From assembly GCA_016285215.1 (NCBI GenBank), contig JAEEQI010000099.1, forward strand, positions 1 through 9,149: 9,149 bases of DNA, given 5' to 3'. The stretch's first letter is position 1, and every line of letters begins with the position of its first letter. Under the pieces are notes generated by a model that did no database searches, had not been told where the DNA came from, and saw only the letters and a list, made by a program, of their open reading frames with translations. Of the stretch, positions 3,813 to 9,049 are shown piece by piece. The DNA is from Bacteroidales bacterium (GTDB lineage: Bacteria > Bacteroidota > Bacteroidia > Bacteroidales > UBA932). A program made the position numbers and the translations under genes.

Positions 3813-4655
3813 ATGAATAGTGTGAATTATGCCGATGGCGACATGGTGGTCGTAGACAGCCTGGACGCCTTCCTCCATACAGACCATGCTCTGGAGGGGA
3901 TGATTCTTTCCATGATTGTGGTTTCGGGCCGGCTCCGGCTCTCCTTTGGCGGAAAGCCCATCGAGGTGGGGAAGTCCGATATCCTCATCTGTCCTCCGCG
4001 GTCAGTGTTGGCCGGTTTTCGGCCCTCTAAAGACTTCCACGGGCTTCTGTTTGGCATGTCCTACACCAAGTTCCAGAAGACGGTGGGGGCTTCCGGCGGC
4101 CGCCTCTGGTCTGTGATGATGTACGCCATGGAGCATCCTGTCTTCCACATGAACCAGGCCGAAATGAGCATAGCCAGCCACTTCTTCTATCTCTTTGAGG
4201 AGAAGCTCGCCGGCTCCCGCGACTACTATTACAAGGAGGTGATGCAGTCCCTGATGACCGCCGCCTTCTACGAGGTCAGCATCATCGTCGAGCGCAATAT
4301 GAAGTATGGCCGAAGCGCCCTCTTCCAGCAGAAGGACCTCGTCTTCCGCCGCTTCCTGGAACTGCTGGCGGTCTCCGAGGGCCAGCGCCGTTCCGTGGCC
4401 TTCTACGCCCGCCAGCTCTGCATCACGCCCAAGTACCTGTCGGCCGCCGTCAAGCAGGCGAGTGGCCGCACGGCCATGGCCTGGATCCACTCCCACATGC
4501 TGGATGCCATCTCCCACGAGCTCCGCTTCTCCGACCGCTCCATCAAAGAAATCGCCGTGGGCTTCGGTTTCACCAACCTCTCCACCTTTGGCAAGTTCGT
4601 TCGCTCCCGCCTCGGCTCCTCCCCCCGCTCCTACCGCAAGTCTGCCCTGGGGTAG
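3813..4655 (+). CDS. AraC/XylS-family transcriptional regulator
   Basis: A 280-aa DNA-binding regulator. Residues about 10-90 look like a cupin-type ligand-binding half (SGRLRLSFGG, VGKSDILICPPRS, LLFGMS), and 100-170 form a helical linker. The C-terminal AraC domain carries two helix-turn-helix units: SVAFYARQLCITPKYLSAAVK (194-214) and SIKEIAVGFGF plus TNLSTFGKFVRSRLGSSPRSYRK (243-276). The second has the AraC signature order (IAVGFGF, STF, KFVRSRLGSSP, YR). Like many Bacteroidales members, it has an N-terminal domain that names no ligand. It is divergent from the acyl-CoA ligase with a 105-bp shared region, so control of that gene and of itself is the natural guess (inference). The start is uncertain: ATG 3813 lies 4 bases past the -7 box, and ATG 3843 (residue 11) would leave a normal short leader and still keep the cupin part. 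No Shine-Dalgarno sequence precedes either. Confidence 0.9.
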   Translation: MNSVNYADGDMVVVDSLDAFLHTDHALEGMILSMIVVSGRLRLSFGGKPIEVGKSDILICPPRSVLAGFRPSKDFHGLLFGMSYTKFQKTVGASGGRLWSVMMYAMEHPVFHMNQAEMSIASHFFYLFEEKLAGSRDYYYKEVMQSLMTAAFYEVSIIVERNMKYGRSALFQQKDLVFRRFLELLAVSEGQRRSVAFYARQLCITPKYLSAAVKQASGRTAMAWIHSHMLDAISHELRFSDRSIKEIAVGFGFTNLSTFGKFVRSRLGSSPRSYRKSALG

Positions 4656-4698
4656 GGCCCGTCCCCGCCCATCATCCTTCCTGGCCTCGACTGTCGTC

Positions 4699-4720
4699 AT
4701 GGCCGACTCCGATCGGCCAT
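4699..4720. repeat. 8-bp perfect hairpin just downstream of the AraC regulator
   Basis: Arms ATGGCCGA (4699-4706) and TCGGCCAT (4713-4720) with a 6-base loop, 44 bases past the regulator stop codon. No T-run follows, so it is not a classical intrinsic terminator. Confidence 0.6.
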
Positions 4721-4736
4721 CTCCCACCCCGGGCGT

Positions 4737-4819
4737 GGTAGACGTGCCAATTCTTGTCCCGTCTACTGCGTTTTGGGTACCTTTTCGCGGTAGATGGGAC
4801 ACTTTCCGGCACGTCTACC
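4737..4819. repeat. Nested 83-bp hairpin (12-bp outer stem, 15-bp inner stem)
   Basis: Outer arms GGTAGACGTGCC (4737-4748) and GGCACGTCTACC (4808-4819) are perfectly complementary. After a symmetric 7-by-7 internal loop, inner arms 4756-4770 (GTCCCGTCTACTGCG) and 4786-4800 (CGCGGTAGATGGGAC) pair at all 15 positions if two G-U pairs are allowed. The apical loop is 15 bases. An alternative fold exists: GCGGTAGA (4787-4794) with TCTACCGC (4814-4821). The wobble pairs suit an RNA read from this strand. Confidence 0.75.
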
Positions 4820-4835
4820 GCACCTTGACCCTCCC

Positions 4836-5003
4836 TAAAGCACACTTTCGGCCTTCTGCGCCACTTTTTGTGCTTTACCCCCTCTCCTTGACCTGGTCTA
4901 AAGCACACTTTTGGCCCCTGAACCCACGAACTGTGCTTTAAGTGGGGTCTTTACCCTGTGGTAAAGCACACTTTTGGCCGCAGAACCCACAAACTGTGCT
5001 TTA
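4836..5003. repeat. Three-copy 63-bp tandem array of 42-bp palindromic elements
   Basis: Elements at 4836-4877, 4899-4940 and 4962-5003 are each exactly 42 bp, bounded by perfect 9-bp arms TAAAGCACA and TGTGCTTTA. The 21-bp spacers are also related: those before copies 1 and 2 share TTGACC at the same offset (4825, 4888), and the third is diverged. The period is exactly 63 bp, about six helical turns. Copies 2 and 3 also share loop sequence (CTTTTGGCC, then GAACCCAC), and copy 1 is more diverged inside. The arms are invariant, so there is no covariation evidence for RNA; repeated binding sites fit equally well. Confidence 0.85.
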
Positions 5004-5060
5004 AGTATTGGTTAAGTATATGCTTTGACCCCGTCTACCGTCGCAGGTCAGGCCCCAAAA

Positions 5061-5096
5061 CGTCGCCGGTCCGCATTTTTCTCTTGACCGGCGACG
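5061..5096. repeat. 11-bp perfect GC-rich hairpin
   Basis: Arms CGTCGCCGGTC (5061-5071) and GACCGGCGACG (5086-5096) with a 14-base T-rich loop. Flanking AAAA and TTTT could extend the stem after one mismatch, which gives an intrinsic-terminator look on either strand. Confidence 0.7.
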
Positions 5097-5121
5097 CTTT
5101 TCGCTCTCCTACGCATTCTAA

Positions 5122-5201
5122 CGTCGCAGGCCAACAAAAAAACGCGGACCTGGGACACTTTCTTCCCCCACCCGCGACACTTTCTTCCCTCACCTGCGAT
5201 G
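5122..5201. repeat. Nested dyad containing a doubled 22-bp direct repeat
   Basis: Outer arms CGTCGCAGG (5122-5130) and CCTGCGATG (5193-5201) pair at 8 of 9 positions, with a G-T at the ninth. Inner arms CGCGG (5143-5147) and CCGCG (5172-5176) are perfect. GACACTTTCTTCCC occurs twice, at 5154-5167 and 5176-5189, a 22-bp period. The 12-mer TGGGACACTTTC here (5151-5162) also occurs at 4795-4806 in the nested hairpin. Confidence 0.6.
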
Positions 5202-5310
5202 CTATTCCCTTCTTCTACGGCCCTGAGCGAGCACTCTCAGAAGAAGCGCTGGAGACAGTGCAACGCCACCACCACGTATGGTGCCATTCGGTGGCCGGTG
5301 CCAGCGTGTT

Positions 5311-5346
5311 GCACAACGTTTGCCGACAAGCGGCAAACTGTTGCGC
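5311..5346. repeat. Hairpin with 8-bp core stem and 5-base loop
   Basis: GTTTGCCG (5318-5325) pairs with CGGCAAAC (5331-5338) around loop ACAAG. A one-base bulge then CAAC/GTTG extends the stem. No U-tract follows. Confidence 0.65.
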
Positions 5347-5373
5347 CCTTTCTTTAACCTACACCCCAAAAGA

Positions 5374-5387
5374 GTTGCCATGGCAAC
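5374..5387. repeat. 14-bp perfect palindrome GTTGCCATGGCAAC
   Basis: An uninterrupted self-complementary 14-mer, more like a dimeric protein site than an RNA hairpin since it has no loop. GTTGC or GCAAC recurs many times between 5259 and 5664, including a tandem GGGCAAC pair at 5536-5549. Confidence 0.6.
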
Positions 5388-5476
5388 GTTCGTCACATGC
5401 CCGATGGTTCAAAGGTTGGCACACATTTATTCGGGGGTCGGGTGCCGGGCCTACGGCCCAAGAAGGAAGACCCCGG

Positions 5477-5513
5477 AGAAGGGATGGGGCCCCGGGAGGC
5501 CCCCATCCCTTCT
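5477..5513 (+). terminator. Strong hairpin followed by a U-rich run, intrinsic-terminator-like
   Basis: Perfect 13-bp arms AGAAGGGATGGGG (5477-5489) and CCCCATCCCTTCT (5501-5513), loop of 11 bases, then TTCTTTTTCTC on the plus strand. It would stop rightward transcripts coming from the AraC regulator side before they oppose the phosphatase operon. It is 820 bp past the regulator stop, so it may instead belong to an unrecognised RNA ending here. Confidence 0.55.
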
Positions 5514-5545
5514 TTCTTTTTCTCTGCCTGAAAGTGGGCAACGGG

Positions 5546-5588
5546 CAACCCCTTCATGAGCCATTTAATTGAGCTCGTGAAGGGGTTG
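5546..5588. repeat. 16-bp hairpin flanking an AT-rich loop
   Basis: CAACCCCTTCATGAGC (5546-5561) pairs with GCTCGTGAAGGGGTTG (5573-5588) with one T-G position. The loop is 11 bases (CATTTAATTGA). This is the longest stem in the region. No U-tract lies on either side. Confidence 0.7.
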
Positions 5589-5595
5589 TTCCGTA

Positions 5596-5623
5596 GCAGC
5601 CGGATGTCGTATACTCCGGCTGC
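5596..5623. repeat. 9-bp perfect hairpin
   Basis: Arms GCAGCCGGA (5596-5604) and TCCGGCTGC (5615-5623) with a 10-base loop, starting 7 bases after the preceding 16-bp hairpin. Confidence 0.65.
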
Positions 5624-5656
5624 GGTGCCTTCCGTTCCTTTGCCTTTCCGTTGCAG

Positions 5657-5713
5657 CGGGCAACAGACGAAGTCTGTAGCCGCCGAGCCTCGTTACCGAG
5701 GCGGCGGTGCCCG
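5657..5713. other. Potential compact three-way-junction structure
   Basis: Closing stem CGGGCA (5657-5662) with TGCCCG (5708-5713). Inside it are hairpin ACAGAC-GAA-GTCTGT (5663-5677) and hairpin CCGCC plus GCCTC (5680-5691, 2-base GA bulge) pairing with GAGGC plus GGCGG (5698-5707). Only two bases of the junction are unpaired. It ends 4 bases from the phosphatase stop, so on the minus strand it would lie in that gene's 3' untranslated region. A competing hairpin, CCGAAT (5711-5716) with ATTCGG (5726-5731), overlaps it. It does not have tRNA loops. Structure is seen; function is unknown. Confidence 0.5.
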
Positions 5714-5717
5714 AATC

Positions 5718-6422
5718 TTATAACAATTCGGCCCTTAATTCCTGAACATTTCGGACCTGACGGTGTCCGGCTAGGTCTTCTGCAGTTCTGTAGCCCCAGG
5801 TGACGGCGATGGATTCGATTCCTCCGTTGGCGGCAGTTTTCATGTCGGTGGGGGAGTCGCCCACCAGGAGGGCGTCTTCTTTGGACACGCCGGAGCGGCG
5901 CAGGACTTCTTGTACTATCTCCGGGTCTGGTTTGAGAGGCGCACCGGGCTTGTTTCCCAGGATGGCAACAAACCGGATGGCAGGGAAGAACCGGTTAATC
6001 AGGTACTCCGTTCCTTCCTGGAATTTGTTGGAGACTACGGCCAGTTGGATGCCGTGGGCGTGGAGGTCTGTGAGTAGCTCAGGGATGCCGGGGTACGGAC
6101 GGGTGTGCACGTCGATGTGAGCCTGGTAATAGGCCTTGAAGTCTGAGAGGGCAGAGTCGATGAGGGCGTCGGAGACCTGGTCTGAGGAGATACGCTCGCT
6201 TCGCTCGGTATGACAGAAGGGGCTTCGCTCGGTATGACAGATACTGGTCTCCAGGGCTTGTTTCACCAGATTCCGGACGCCGTGACCTACCATGCGGCGG
6301 TATTCGGCGACTGAATGAAGAGGCAGGCCCCGGAGTCCCAGGGCGTGGTTTACGGCTTCGGCCAGATCTTCCAGGGAGTCTATGAGGGTTCCGTCCAGGT
6401 CAAAGAGGATGAGCTTGATCAT
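5718..6422 (-). CDS. HAD-superfamily phosphatase, phosphoglycolate phosphatase-like, with an in-frame repeat insertion
   Basis: A 234-aa haloacid-dehalogenase hydrolase of the Gph/PGPase type, probably hydrolysing small phosphomonoesters such as 2-phosphoglycolate in the cytoplasm. Motif I is DLDGT with nucleophile D8 and general acid D10; motif II Ser in VVSNK (S131); motif III Lys in LKPDP (K164); motif IV GDSPTD (D189, D193). The cap domain lies between D10 and S131. All catalytic residues are present. Oddity: residues about 60-80 read SICHTERSPFCHTERSERIS, absent from relatives as I know them. This is the translation of a doubled 24-bp DNA repeat inserted in the cap domain, and the frame is kept. 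Its ATG overlaps the TGA of the upstream peroxiredoxin gene (ATGA), which points to translational coupling. Substrate is inferred from family only. Confidence 0.9.
   Translation of the reverse strand: MIKLILFDLDGTLIDSLEDLAEAVNHALGLRGLPLHSVAEYRRMVGHGVRNLVKQALETSICHTERSPFCHTERSERISSDQVSDALIDSALSDFKAYYQAHIDVHTRPYPGIPELLTDLHAHGIQLAVVSNKFQEGTEYLINRFFPAIRFVAILGNKPGAPLKPDPEIVQEVLRRSGVSKEDALLVGDSPTDMKTAANGGIESIAVTWGYRTAEDLAGHRQVRNVQELRAELL
6194..6245 (-). repeat. Doubled dispersed-type repeat unit inside the HAD phosphatase gene
   Basis: On the plus strand GCTTCGCTCGGTATGACAGA occurs twice, at 6198-6217 and 6222-6241, 24 bases apart (8 codons). Read on the minus strand it is the GTCATACCGAGCGAAG type of short repeat widely dispersed in bacterial intergenic regions. 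CTGGTCT is found on both sides (6177-6183 and 6244-6250), possibly a target duplication. Confidence 0.8.
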
Positions 6423-7042: not shown

Positions 7043-7312
7043 ATGATGACAATGGCTAGAACAGTAACGGTTTCCTTAGGACCGCATTATGAGGAGTTTA
7101 TCCAGAAGGCAATTGCCGGTGGCAGATTCAATAATGTCAGCGAAGTAATTCGTGCAGCATTGCGTCAAATGGAGGATGAAGAAGCCAGGTTGTCTGCAAT
7201 TCGTTCGGCGCTAATAGAGGGTGAGAATAGTGGCATCGTAGAGGACTTTGATCCTCAAACGTATGTTCAAAAACTTAACGAGGAGTATGATGCGCAAGTT
7301 CAATCTTTCTAA
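7043..7312 (+). CDS. parD: ParD-family ribbon-helix-helix antitoxin
   Basis: An 89-aa antitoxin. The N-terminal part has the ribbon-helix-helix order: strand TVTVSL (7-12), helix PHYEEFIQKAIAGG (14-27), then NVSEVIRAALRQMEDEE (31-47) with the SEVIRAALR signature of ParD. The acidic C-terminal tail (EGENSGIVEDFDPQTYVQKLNEEYDA) is the part that wraps the toxin in this family. It binds DNA as a dimer, represses its own promoter and neutralises ParE. In-frame ATGs at 7043, 7046 and 7052 cannot be separated by RBS; MARTVTV from 7052 looks most like family N-termini, and I give the longest form. It overlaps the toxin gene downstream. The DNA is AT-richer than the flanking genes. Confidence 0.9.
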   Translation: MMTMARTVTVSLGPHYEEFIQKAIAGGRFNNVSEVIRAALRQMEDEEARLSAIRSALIEGENSGIVEDFDPQTYVQKLNEEYDAQVQSF

Positions 7313-7586
7313 TGCTGCAGATAAGGATCTAAAGCAGATTTGGCAATACACACTTGAAACGTGGTCGCGAGAGCAGGCAAATAAGTATGTTTCCGGCTTG
7401 TTGGCGGCTTGTGCAGACATCGCTCAATCACCGGAGTCTTTAGGACAGCCTTATGATTATGTTCGTGTTGGCTATCGCAAGTACCCTTGGTGTAAACACG
7501 TGATCTTTTATCTGATTCAGGACGACGGTACAGTCCTAATTGTCCGTATCTTACACCAAAGAATGGATTACGAAAGGCATTTGTAA
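7290..7586 (+). CDS. parE: ParE-family toxin (RelE/ParE superfamily)
   Basis: A 98-aa toxin from ATG 7290. Seen: LSNAADKDLKQIWQYTLETWSREQA (6-30), GLLAACADIAQSPESLGQPYDYVRVGYRKYP (36-66), the strand HVIFYLIQDDGTVLIVRILHQRMD (70-93) and the terminal YERHL. The RILHQRMD ending is a ParE hallmark. ParE toxins poison DNA gyrase; the RelE-type catalytic set is not evident, so gyrase is the likelier target (family knowledge). AGGAG at 7281-7285 sits 4 bases before ATG 7290; ATG 7287 would be too close, and an in-frame ATG at 7248 would add a tail that only reads parD in another frame. It overlaps parD by 23 bases, the usual coupled antitoxin-first order. Confidence 0.93.
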   Translation: MRKFNLSNAADKDLKQIWQYTLETWSREQANKYVSGLLAACADIAQSPESLGQPYDYVRVGYRKYPWCKHVIFYLIQDDGTVLIVRILHQRMDYERHL

Positions 7587-8452: not shown

Positions 8453-9049
8453 CTACTTGAATAAGGGCCGATAGGCTTCGGCCTTTTTCTCTAGTGGGAG
8501 GGGATAGGCACGGGAGGTGGAGGGCATGCGCCAGAAGCGGAGATCCCGGGTCAAAGCCCGGGATGAGGAGGAAAGGCCGGGCATGACGATATCCACAAAA
8601 CCTCCGACGGGAGGGATGGGGCAGCCGTAGCTGGAGGAAATGACTTCGGTGGCTTTCTGGCCTGTGGTGACCAGCGTGTGGCAGCTGGGAATTCGTGCCA
8701 GAAGGGACGGGATGTCGGTGGGGGTAACAACCTCCAGGAAGGCGTCGGACGCATTGTCTTTGAGCCGACGCACCTCGCAGGCGGTGTCGTAGAAGGCCAG
8801 GCCTTCGGCCATACAGAAAGTGCGGATGGCCGATTCGTCAAACCGTTTCTCACCCGGCACGCAAAAGTGATTCTTGTCCCCAAAGTGGATGAGGCCCATA
8901 ATCCGCCAGAAATCATTGATCCAATTGGGATAATAAAACGGCATGCACCACCTGTGCTCCTGCGGCGGAAAGCTCCCCAGGAACAGAATCTTCGCATTCT
9001 CCGGCAAAAACGGCTCGAAAGGATGTTTCTCAATCGGCGGTTTCATCAT
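8453..9049 (-). CDS. Uracil-DNA-glycosylase superfamily protein with an in-frame palindromic insert
   Basis: A 198-aa member of the UDG superfamily, in a Bacteroidota group related to family 6 (hypoxanthine/deoxyinosine) glycosylases; it should remove deaminated bases from DNA. Seen: FEPFLPENAKILFLGSFPP (11-29) with the GSFPP first motif, RWCMPFYYPNWINDFWRIMG (33-52), FYDTACEVRRLKDNASD (87-102), VTTGQKATE (127-135), and the second catalytic-loop-like motif MPSTSRAYP (175-183). Oddity: residues about 157-169 (PGLSSSSRALTRD) interrupt the stretch between FVDIVM and LRFWRMPSTSRAYP, where relatives as I know them have only a short linker; the DNA there is a perfect palindrome. ATG at 9049 or 9046 is likely; a GTG at 9052 is also in frame. 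Substrate specificity is inferred. Confidence 0.85.
   Translation of the reverse strand: MMKPPIEKHPFEPFLPENAKILFLGSFPPQEHRWCMPFYYPNWINDFWRIMGLIHFGDKNHFCVPGEKRFDESAIRTFCMAEGLAFYDTACEVRRLKDNASDAFLEVVTPTDIPSLLARIPSCHTLVTTGQKATEVISSSYGCPIPPVGGFVDIVMPGLSSSSRALTRDLRFWRMPSTSRAYPLPLEKKAEAYRPLFK
8466..8488 (+). terminator. Intrinsic terminator for the metallophosphoesterase side, inside the glycosylase 3' end
   Basis: GGCCGA (8466-8471) pairs with TCGGCC (8478-8483), followed by TTTTT (8484-8488). An alternative inner stem AGGC-TTCG-GCCT has the very stable C(UUCG)G loop. It begins 26 bases after the metallophosphoesterase stop and overlaps the last codons of the opposing glycosylase gene. Confidence 0.6.
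8543..8564. repeat. Perfect CCCGGG-type palindromic repeat inside the glycosylase gene
   Basis: Arms ATCCCGGG (8543-8550) and CCCGGGAT (8557-8564) around a 6-base centre (TCAAAG). This is the ATCCCGGG-centre-CCCGGGAT type of element I know as a common dispersed intergenic repeat. Here it encodes residues 162-169 of the glycosylase. Confidence 0.75.

Follow-up and report, generated by a model that had tools for sequence, protein, structure and literature searches.

The intergenic interval at positions 4656–5717 of a 9,149-nucleotide stretch of contig JAEEQI010000099.1, from a Bacteroidales bacterium of the UBA932 lineage (the whole stretch is referred to as the window), is very probably a lineage-specific mosaic of dispersed palindromic repeats. 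The mosaic resembles repetitive extragenic palindromes (REPs) and bacterial interspersed mosaic elements (BIMEs), and at least two of its repeat families, families 1 and 3, very probably have their own HUH tyrosine transposases, similar to REP-associated tyrosine transposases (RAYTs). It falls within REP/RAYT biology, as an unusually diversified case of the atypical type seen in Bacteroidota, and comes from uncultured rumen-type Bacteroidales. The analysis documents the dispersal of the repeats, the geometry of their arrays, their nearness to cognate genes, the co-divergence of stems and enzymes, conserved catalytic-type residues and a predicted fold; binding, cleavage, mobilisation and effects on transcripts are what we infer.

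Hairpin density and the family 1 arrays

The interval is gene-free and located between two convergent genes, one for an AraC-type regulator (stop at 4655) and one for a HAD phosphatase (stop at 5718). With a minimum arm of 8 nt and a maximum loop of 60 nt, its 1062 nt contain 14 maximal perfect inverted repeats, while 200 dinucleotide shuffles give a mean of 0.78 and a maximum of 4; with arms of at least 9 nt, there are 10, against 0.21 in the shuffles. Twelve overlapping control tiles of 1062 nt, taken from the window outside the interval, contain between none and two inverted repeats each. A preliminary description of this DNA, which had reported at least ten inverted repeats and few such arms expected by chance, is thus borne out. 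Its further statement that the stems are mostly unrelated holds only in part: five of the 14 are built on one stem, TAAAGCAC/GTGCTTTA, and form a three-unit tandem array with a period of 63, and the hairpins at 5036–5207 have repeats in common with one another.

The three tandem units make up family 1 and are located on the forward strand at 4833–4880, 4896–4943 and 4959–5006. A covariance model (R1), built from 26 units of the relative G001 and none of the window, detects them with 37.0 bits (E 1.5e-8), 44.8 bits (E 8.5e-11) and 38.4 bits (E 5.8e-9), respectively. Across 119 genomes of the family, the same model gives 48 matches in G001 and one in G110. With up to two mismatches allowed, G001 contains 44 occurrences of the window-derived pattern TAAAGCACACTTTYGGCC (reversed control, 0), and among 60 relatives nine have a single two-mismatch match each, about the control level. 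In G001, a regular expression defines 42 units (39 of 49 nt, two of 48 nt and one of 50 nt), which lie in 18 clusters of one to five, never on mixed strands and head to tail in 18 of 18. Neighbours are spaced by exactly 64 nt in 23 cases, with one wider in-cluster pair at 289; spacings of 62 and 63 are found among weaker matches made by the model only. The loops and spacers vary among a few recurring types. Regularly spaced palindromic units are also a property of arrays of clustered regularly interspaced short palindromic repeats (CRISPR), from which the 18 clusters of one to five units, with their few recurring loop and spacer types, are set apart by layout alone.

The family 1 stem has eight inner pairs that are invariant in the 26 units; no pair has changes in both of its partners, and its covariation score does not exceed that of shuffles. 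The invariant stem therefore fits sequence-specific recognition, or recent spread, better than a selected RNA fold. This bears on the suggestion, made in the preliminary description, that the whole kilobase is a single large structured non-coding RNA. Dense, stable hairpins would be expected of such an RNA, but it is very unlikely: besides the lack of both-side changes in family 1, an Rfam search of the interval gave no family at gathering score (11 matches with E up to 5 belong to microRNA, small-RNA and viral families, all far below the cut-offs), the interval is not syntenic, and its blocks recur separately at unrelated loci. A structured RNA is possible for part of 5237–5713, discussed below.

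No strand or gene-orientation preference of family 1 is apparent across the 18 clusters in G001, and such a preference was rejected. Unit orientation and local GC skew agree in 8 of 18 clusters; three clusters lie between convergent genes, five between divergent and five between co-directional ones, and five are at contig edges. Ordinary terminators between convergent genes plus chance are the least probable of the explanations considered and were rejected for the region as a whole. The flanking genes do converge, and a GC-rich hairpin with 13-bp arms followed by a T-rich stretch (5477–5513, forward strand) is terminator-like, but the number of hairpins far exceeds that in shuffles, and with 42 exact-period units elsewhere in G001 only three of 18 clusters are convergent. 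It is extremely unlikely, too, that the hairpins are sites at which a dimeric regulator, such as the adjacent AraC protein, binds. Dyad symmetry is all that supports this proposal, also made in the preliminary description, besides the period of 63–64 nt, which is near six helical turns. Against it, the family 1 clusters of G001 have flanking genes in every orientation, the arrays accompany a transposase orthologue, and the AraC orthologues of three genomes lack adjoining arrays.

Transposases that accompany the hairpins

The longest unbroken family 1 array in G001, of five units, is located directly upstream of gene C26, a cryptic, RAYT-like HUH/Y1 transposase. A search of this genome with PF01797 gave six Y1 genes, and a search with those six gave ten genes of the L072/L073 kind, among them C20, which is truncated by the end of its contig, and four of the L068 kind; by eye, hairpins are present beside each of the 13 full-length genes. 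The HxH and YxxRN motifs are invariant in nine of nine full-length G001 proteins, with a spacing from HUH to tyrosine of 55–58 residues, counted from the second histidine, in all nine. The associated protein is predicted to adopt the TnpA-REP fold. Curated models mostly miss these proteins: in hmmscan, none of the nine exceeds the curated cut-off of Pfam Y1_Tnp or of NCBIfam REP_Tyr_transpos, and in the genome search C11 is barely at the Pfam cut-off (23.2 bits, with in-frame neighbours), while the four L068-type genes are over it. Matches to the clade occur in 62 of 119 related genomes, as many as 16 in a single one and mostly under the curated cut-offs, and named C26 homologues carry the label hypothetical protein.

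Three tests are free of the circularity that comes with picking hairpins from gene flanks. When hairpin families are defined de novo in G001 (21 families with at least four members), they are found within 500 bp of 10 of the 13 Y1 genes; among 555 size-matched genes, the 13 included, the same holds for 55. In other genomes, 600-nt flanks have hairpin arms in common at 13 of 27 RAYT loci, two of 29 having been dropped as short, compared with 8 of 180 control open reading frames (ORFs) from L002–L036. Orthologues of C26 were sought in 398 genomes by protein alone, giving seven at 1e-60, G001 included. Those at 54–66% identity have tandem TAAAGCAC hairpins in four of four cases, with array spacings of 75 in G037 and G328, 63 in G331 and about 62 in G440; the two at 44% identity both have drifted stems, TGAAGAGC/TAAAGAGC. 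The stem follows the enzyme: hairpin and transposase diverge together along the C26 orthogroup.

Family 3 occupies positions 5036–5207 of the forward strand and consists of CGTCGCAGG/CACCTGCGAC hairpins with a 22-nt direct repeat. Residues 5035–5197 of the window match G145:C2:17530–17693 (E 1.6e-7), 885 nt from a RAYT gene that has similar hairpins on its opposite side. The protein encoded there shares 59% identity with C67 of G001, downstream of which tandem CACCTGCGGC hairpins are found. Because of this match and the relationship to C67, family 3 is a second block with a second likely cognate RAYT orthogroup.

Further observations were made around these genes. Several RAYT genes (C26 of G001; L258–L268) are closely preceded by an inverted repeat, TTATCCGT..ACGGATAA, possibly an operator or the end of an insertion sequence (IS). 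The motif TCGCC or TCGGCC, picked post hoc, is present in six of nine G001 hairpin loops beside RAYT genes, against 0.34 in shuffles; as a loop motif common to RAYT-flanking hairpins it was rejected after fresh loci gave 4 of 26 against 2.8 expected. In G001 (for example in L043) a hairpin family with the sequence CTGTATGTACAG has 22 copies in 12 clusters, none of them within 500 bp of a Y1 gene; of 34 hairpins of this family, 26 are within rough ORF calls.

The closest described system is TnpA-REP subclass 2.6, equal to RAYT group 5, with the atypical REPs of Bacteroidetes. As described in PMC6006769, it shares the Bacteroidota host, HUH-Y1 proteins and flanking hairpins that lack GTAG and recur in the genome. 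It differs in its reported median HUH-to-Tyr spacing of 82, although the counting used there may not be the same as ours, whereas many distinct genes per genome and head-to-tail arrays of fixed period are found here. The REPtron/RAYT systems of Pseudomonas and Stenotrophomonas, as described in PMC2817692 and PMC3686654, likewise have one hairpin family per transposase and co-variation of hairpin and enzyme, but GTAG is absent from the foot of the family 1 hairpins, and the maximum reported for those systems is four RAYTs per genome. BIMEs and REPINs (PMC2817692, PMC3116915 and PMC8049555) are also clustered intergenic palindromes of mixed types; in contrast, family 1 units in G001 are one-directional in 18 of 18 clusters. 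The two hairpins of family 2 in the window are inverted relative to each other. No report of RAYT expansions in rumen Bacteroidales was found in the accessible text of the open-licence literature.

A mechanism can be proposed in which the transposase would recognise its hairpin in single-stranded DNA and the conserved tyrosine would nick it, a step suggested because of the enzyme family. Units would be copied or moved to new intergenic sites, tandem arrays would then lengthen head to tail with a constant period, and the hairpin would diverge jointly with its enzyme. The composite element at 5237–5713 would be an addition to this mosaic.

Other blocks of the mosaic and the composite element

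Two further blocks precede family 1. A single hairpin repeat, GTCATGGCCGA..TCGGCCATCTCCC (4692–4725, forward strand), is found with 100% identity over 34 nt in G374:C34 and exactly over 27 nt in G001:C59, and is matched in 33 of 398 family genomes (rows counted by hand). Family 2 (4735–4822) is an inverted pair of GGTAGACGTGCC../..GGCACGTCTACC hairpins with 12-bp outer arms; it recurs in G374:C34, with a similar pair in G440:C66. No PDB or Rfam family match was found for it, and no further search was made. Because family 2 lies upstream of the composite element in the window, in G374:C34 and in G440:C66, the data suggest that blocks move or are retained jointly, with gain and loss of the hairpin arrays that lie between them.

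The composite dispersed element (5237–5713, forward strand) has a variable centre and is present in four places in G374. The copy in C22 follows purT and is 87% identical over 477 nt; those in C34, C33 and C24 are in pieces. In C34, where the copy follows an apparent tRNA 3' end (truncated by the stretch and without an ARAGORN call), the centre, including the part with the terminator-like hairpin, is replaced; in C33 and C24, similar-sized gaps follow from the coordinates. G440:C66 has the 3' part of the element, in a truncated copy. Among the matches listed, the nearest RAYT-like match to the G374 copies is at least 3 kb away. A further hairpin of the window, GATCCCGGGTCAAAGCCCGGGATG at 8540–8570, resembles CATCCCGGG repeats beside the G374 copies.

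Within the element, module A (5536–5629, forward strand) folds on paper into a three-way junction, GGGCAAC-hairpin-CCGTAG-hairpin-GGTGCC, with GTAG before the second hairpin. Module B (5658–5711, forward strand) is a shorter form of it, matched by a second model, R2, at E 0.0024. In module A, 99.3% of cells are paired and 11 of 28 pairs are changed on both sides among five distinct sequences. A search of 1.66 Mb of G001 with the R2 model gave five further matches (E up to 7e-4). At L139:13654–14904, 85 nt separate a module A copy from the start of a transposase gene of the IS110 family; IS110-type IS are known to enter REPs (PMC8450116).

These data raise the possibility, which we consider rather unlikely, that 5237–5713 alone is a structured RNA, or a single-stranded DNA element under structure selection, that happens to adjoin a REP mosaic. 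The both-side changes of module A, with a covariation score reached by none of 500 shuffles and a both-side pair count reached by two, argue for it, as do the conserved boxes GGGCAAC, CCGTAG and GGTGCC, the four places in G374, and the strand, which is that of the upstream gene in the window and that of purT in G374:C22. On the other hand, the five sequences amount to about two lineages, the number of further pair types is attained by 289 of 500 shuffles, none of 37 named relatives' loci matches R2 at E 0.01, the replacement of stems in mobile hairpins could yield the same pattern, and one copy is near the IS110-type transposase. Judged from the sequence, any selection on module A may act on RNA or on DNA structure. 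Covariation, which the preliminary description had named as a check, is thus lacking in family 1 and present, in few lineages, in module A.

Comparison with relatives and weighing of the evidence

The closest of 37 loci returned is L001, from the Bacteroidales metagenome-assembled genome isolate Tb.RUG.533 (G001), whose ligase and PurT are 79% and 93% identical to those of the window. In L001, polysaccharide-export and chain-length genes follow the AraC gene, so the interval is not syntenic. AraC orthologues are present in 5 of 398 genomes (G001 and four others); in three of those besides G001, with G377 left out, their 3' side has a tRNA-Ala and no comparable hairpin field. The 3' side of the HAD gene has different sequence without hairpin arrays in G113, G037 and G328, five tandem TAGGGTGCAC..GTGCACCCTA hairpins with a period of about 44 nt in G331 (L273), and in G001 a transposase gene with its own hairpins directly after the HAD orthologue. 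The same flanking genes thus adjoin other genes or repeats, which for most of the kilobase is the outcome that the preliminary description had named as a refutation, and it tells against one large RNA. The interval itself is matched in 75 of the 398 family genomes. With several families side by side that recur elsewhere in relatives, a landing area for palindromic repeats comes closest of the three candidates put forward in the preliminary description.

The window's HAD gene contains two copies of a TCATACCGAGCGAAGC repeat at 6180–6250, in frame, encoding the peptide CHTERSPFCHTERSE. About 20 residues are missing from the G001 orthologue at this site, indicating an intragenic palindromic-repeat insertion. 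A ParD/ParE type II toxin-antitoxin pair is encoded at 7043–7586.

A phage or plasmid origin was rejected: the interval has no match at E 0.001 in either collection, and of two patterns searched in IMG/VR one was without match and the other matched one place (L280), inside an ORF among phage-like ORFs, which is taken as chance. The single long ORF tested inside the interval (4958–5572) matches no Pfam family.

The assignment to REP/RAYT biology accounts for the dispersal, the lineage restriction, the private families and the co-divergence. Several points weigh against it. The 4692 repeat, family 2 and the composite element are left unexplained, no cognate transposase having been found for them, and the cognate RAYT genes of the other families are known from relatives rather than from the window's own genome. 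A transposase remnant inside the interval was rejected, tblastn giving a best E of 0.044 for RAYT. The diagonal of a hairpin-versus-gene matrix for G001 is partly circular, because its hairpins were picked from gene flanks, and 14 of the 27 RAYT loci lack shared hairpin arms. Family 1 arrays run head to tail, whereas classical BIMEs alternate. Movement of the units, finally, is a proposed step.

What is known of REPs and RAYTs comes largely from Proteobacteria whose genomes have a few transposases each. A wider picture is offered tentatively, as less likely than not: rumen-type Bacteroidales would have a large, barely annotated RAYT clade, with about 10 to 16 matches per 2–3 Mb genome in the richest, and private, fast re-coded hairpins. 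Intergenic kilobases would serve as landing pads where these families accumulate beside the composite element, itself a new dispersed structured RNA or single-stranded DNA element with a covarying three-way junction. Members of the clade mostly escape curated models, and such repeats may break short-read assemblies of gut Bacteroidales. Genomes with at least ten enzyme-hairpin pairs would be a natural series on the co-change of a single-strand nuclease and its hairpin, in which the shift from TAAAGCAC to TAAAGAGC/TGAAGAGC within one orthogroup is a direct, testable case.
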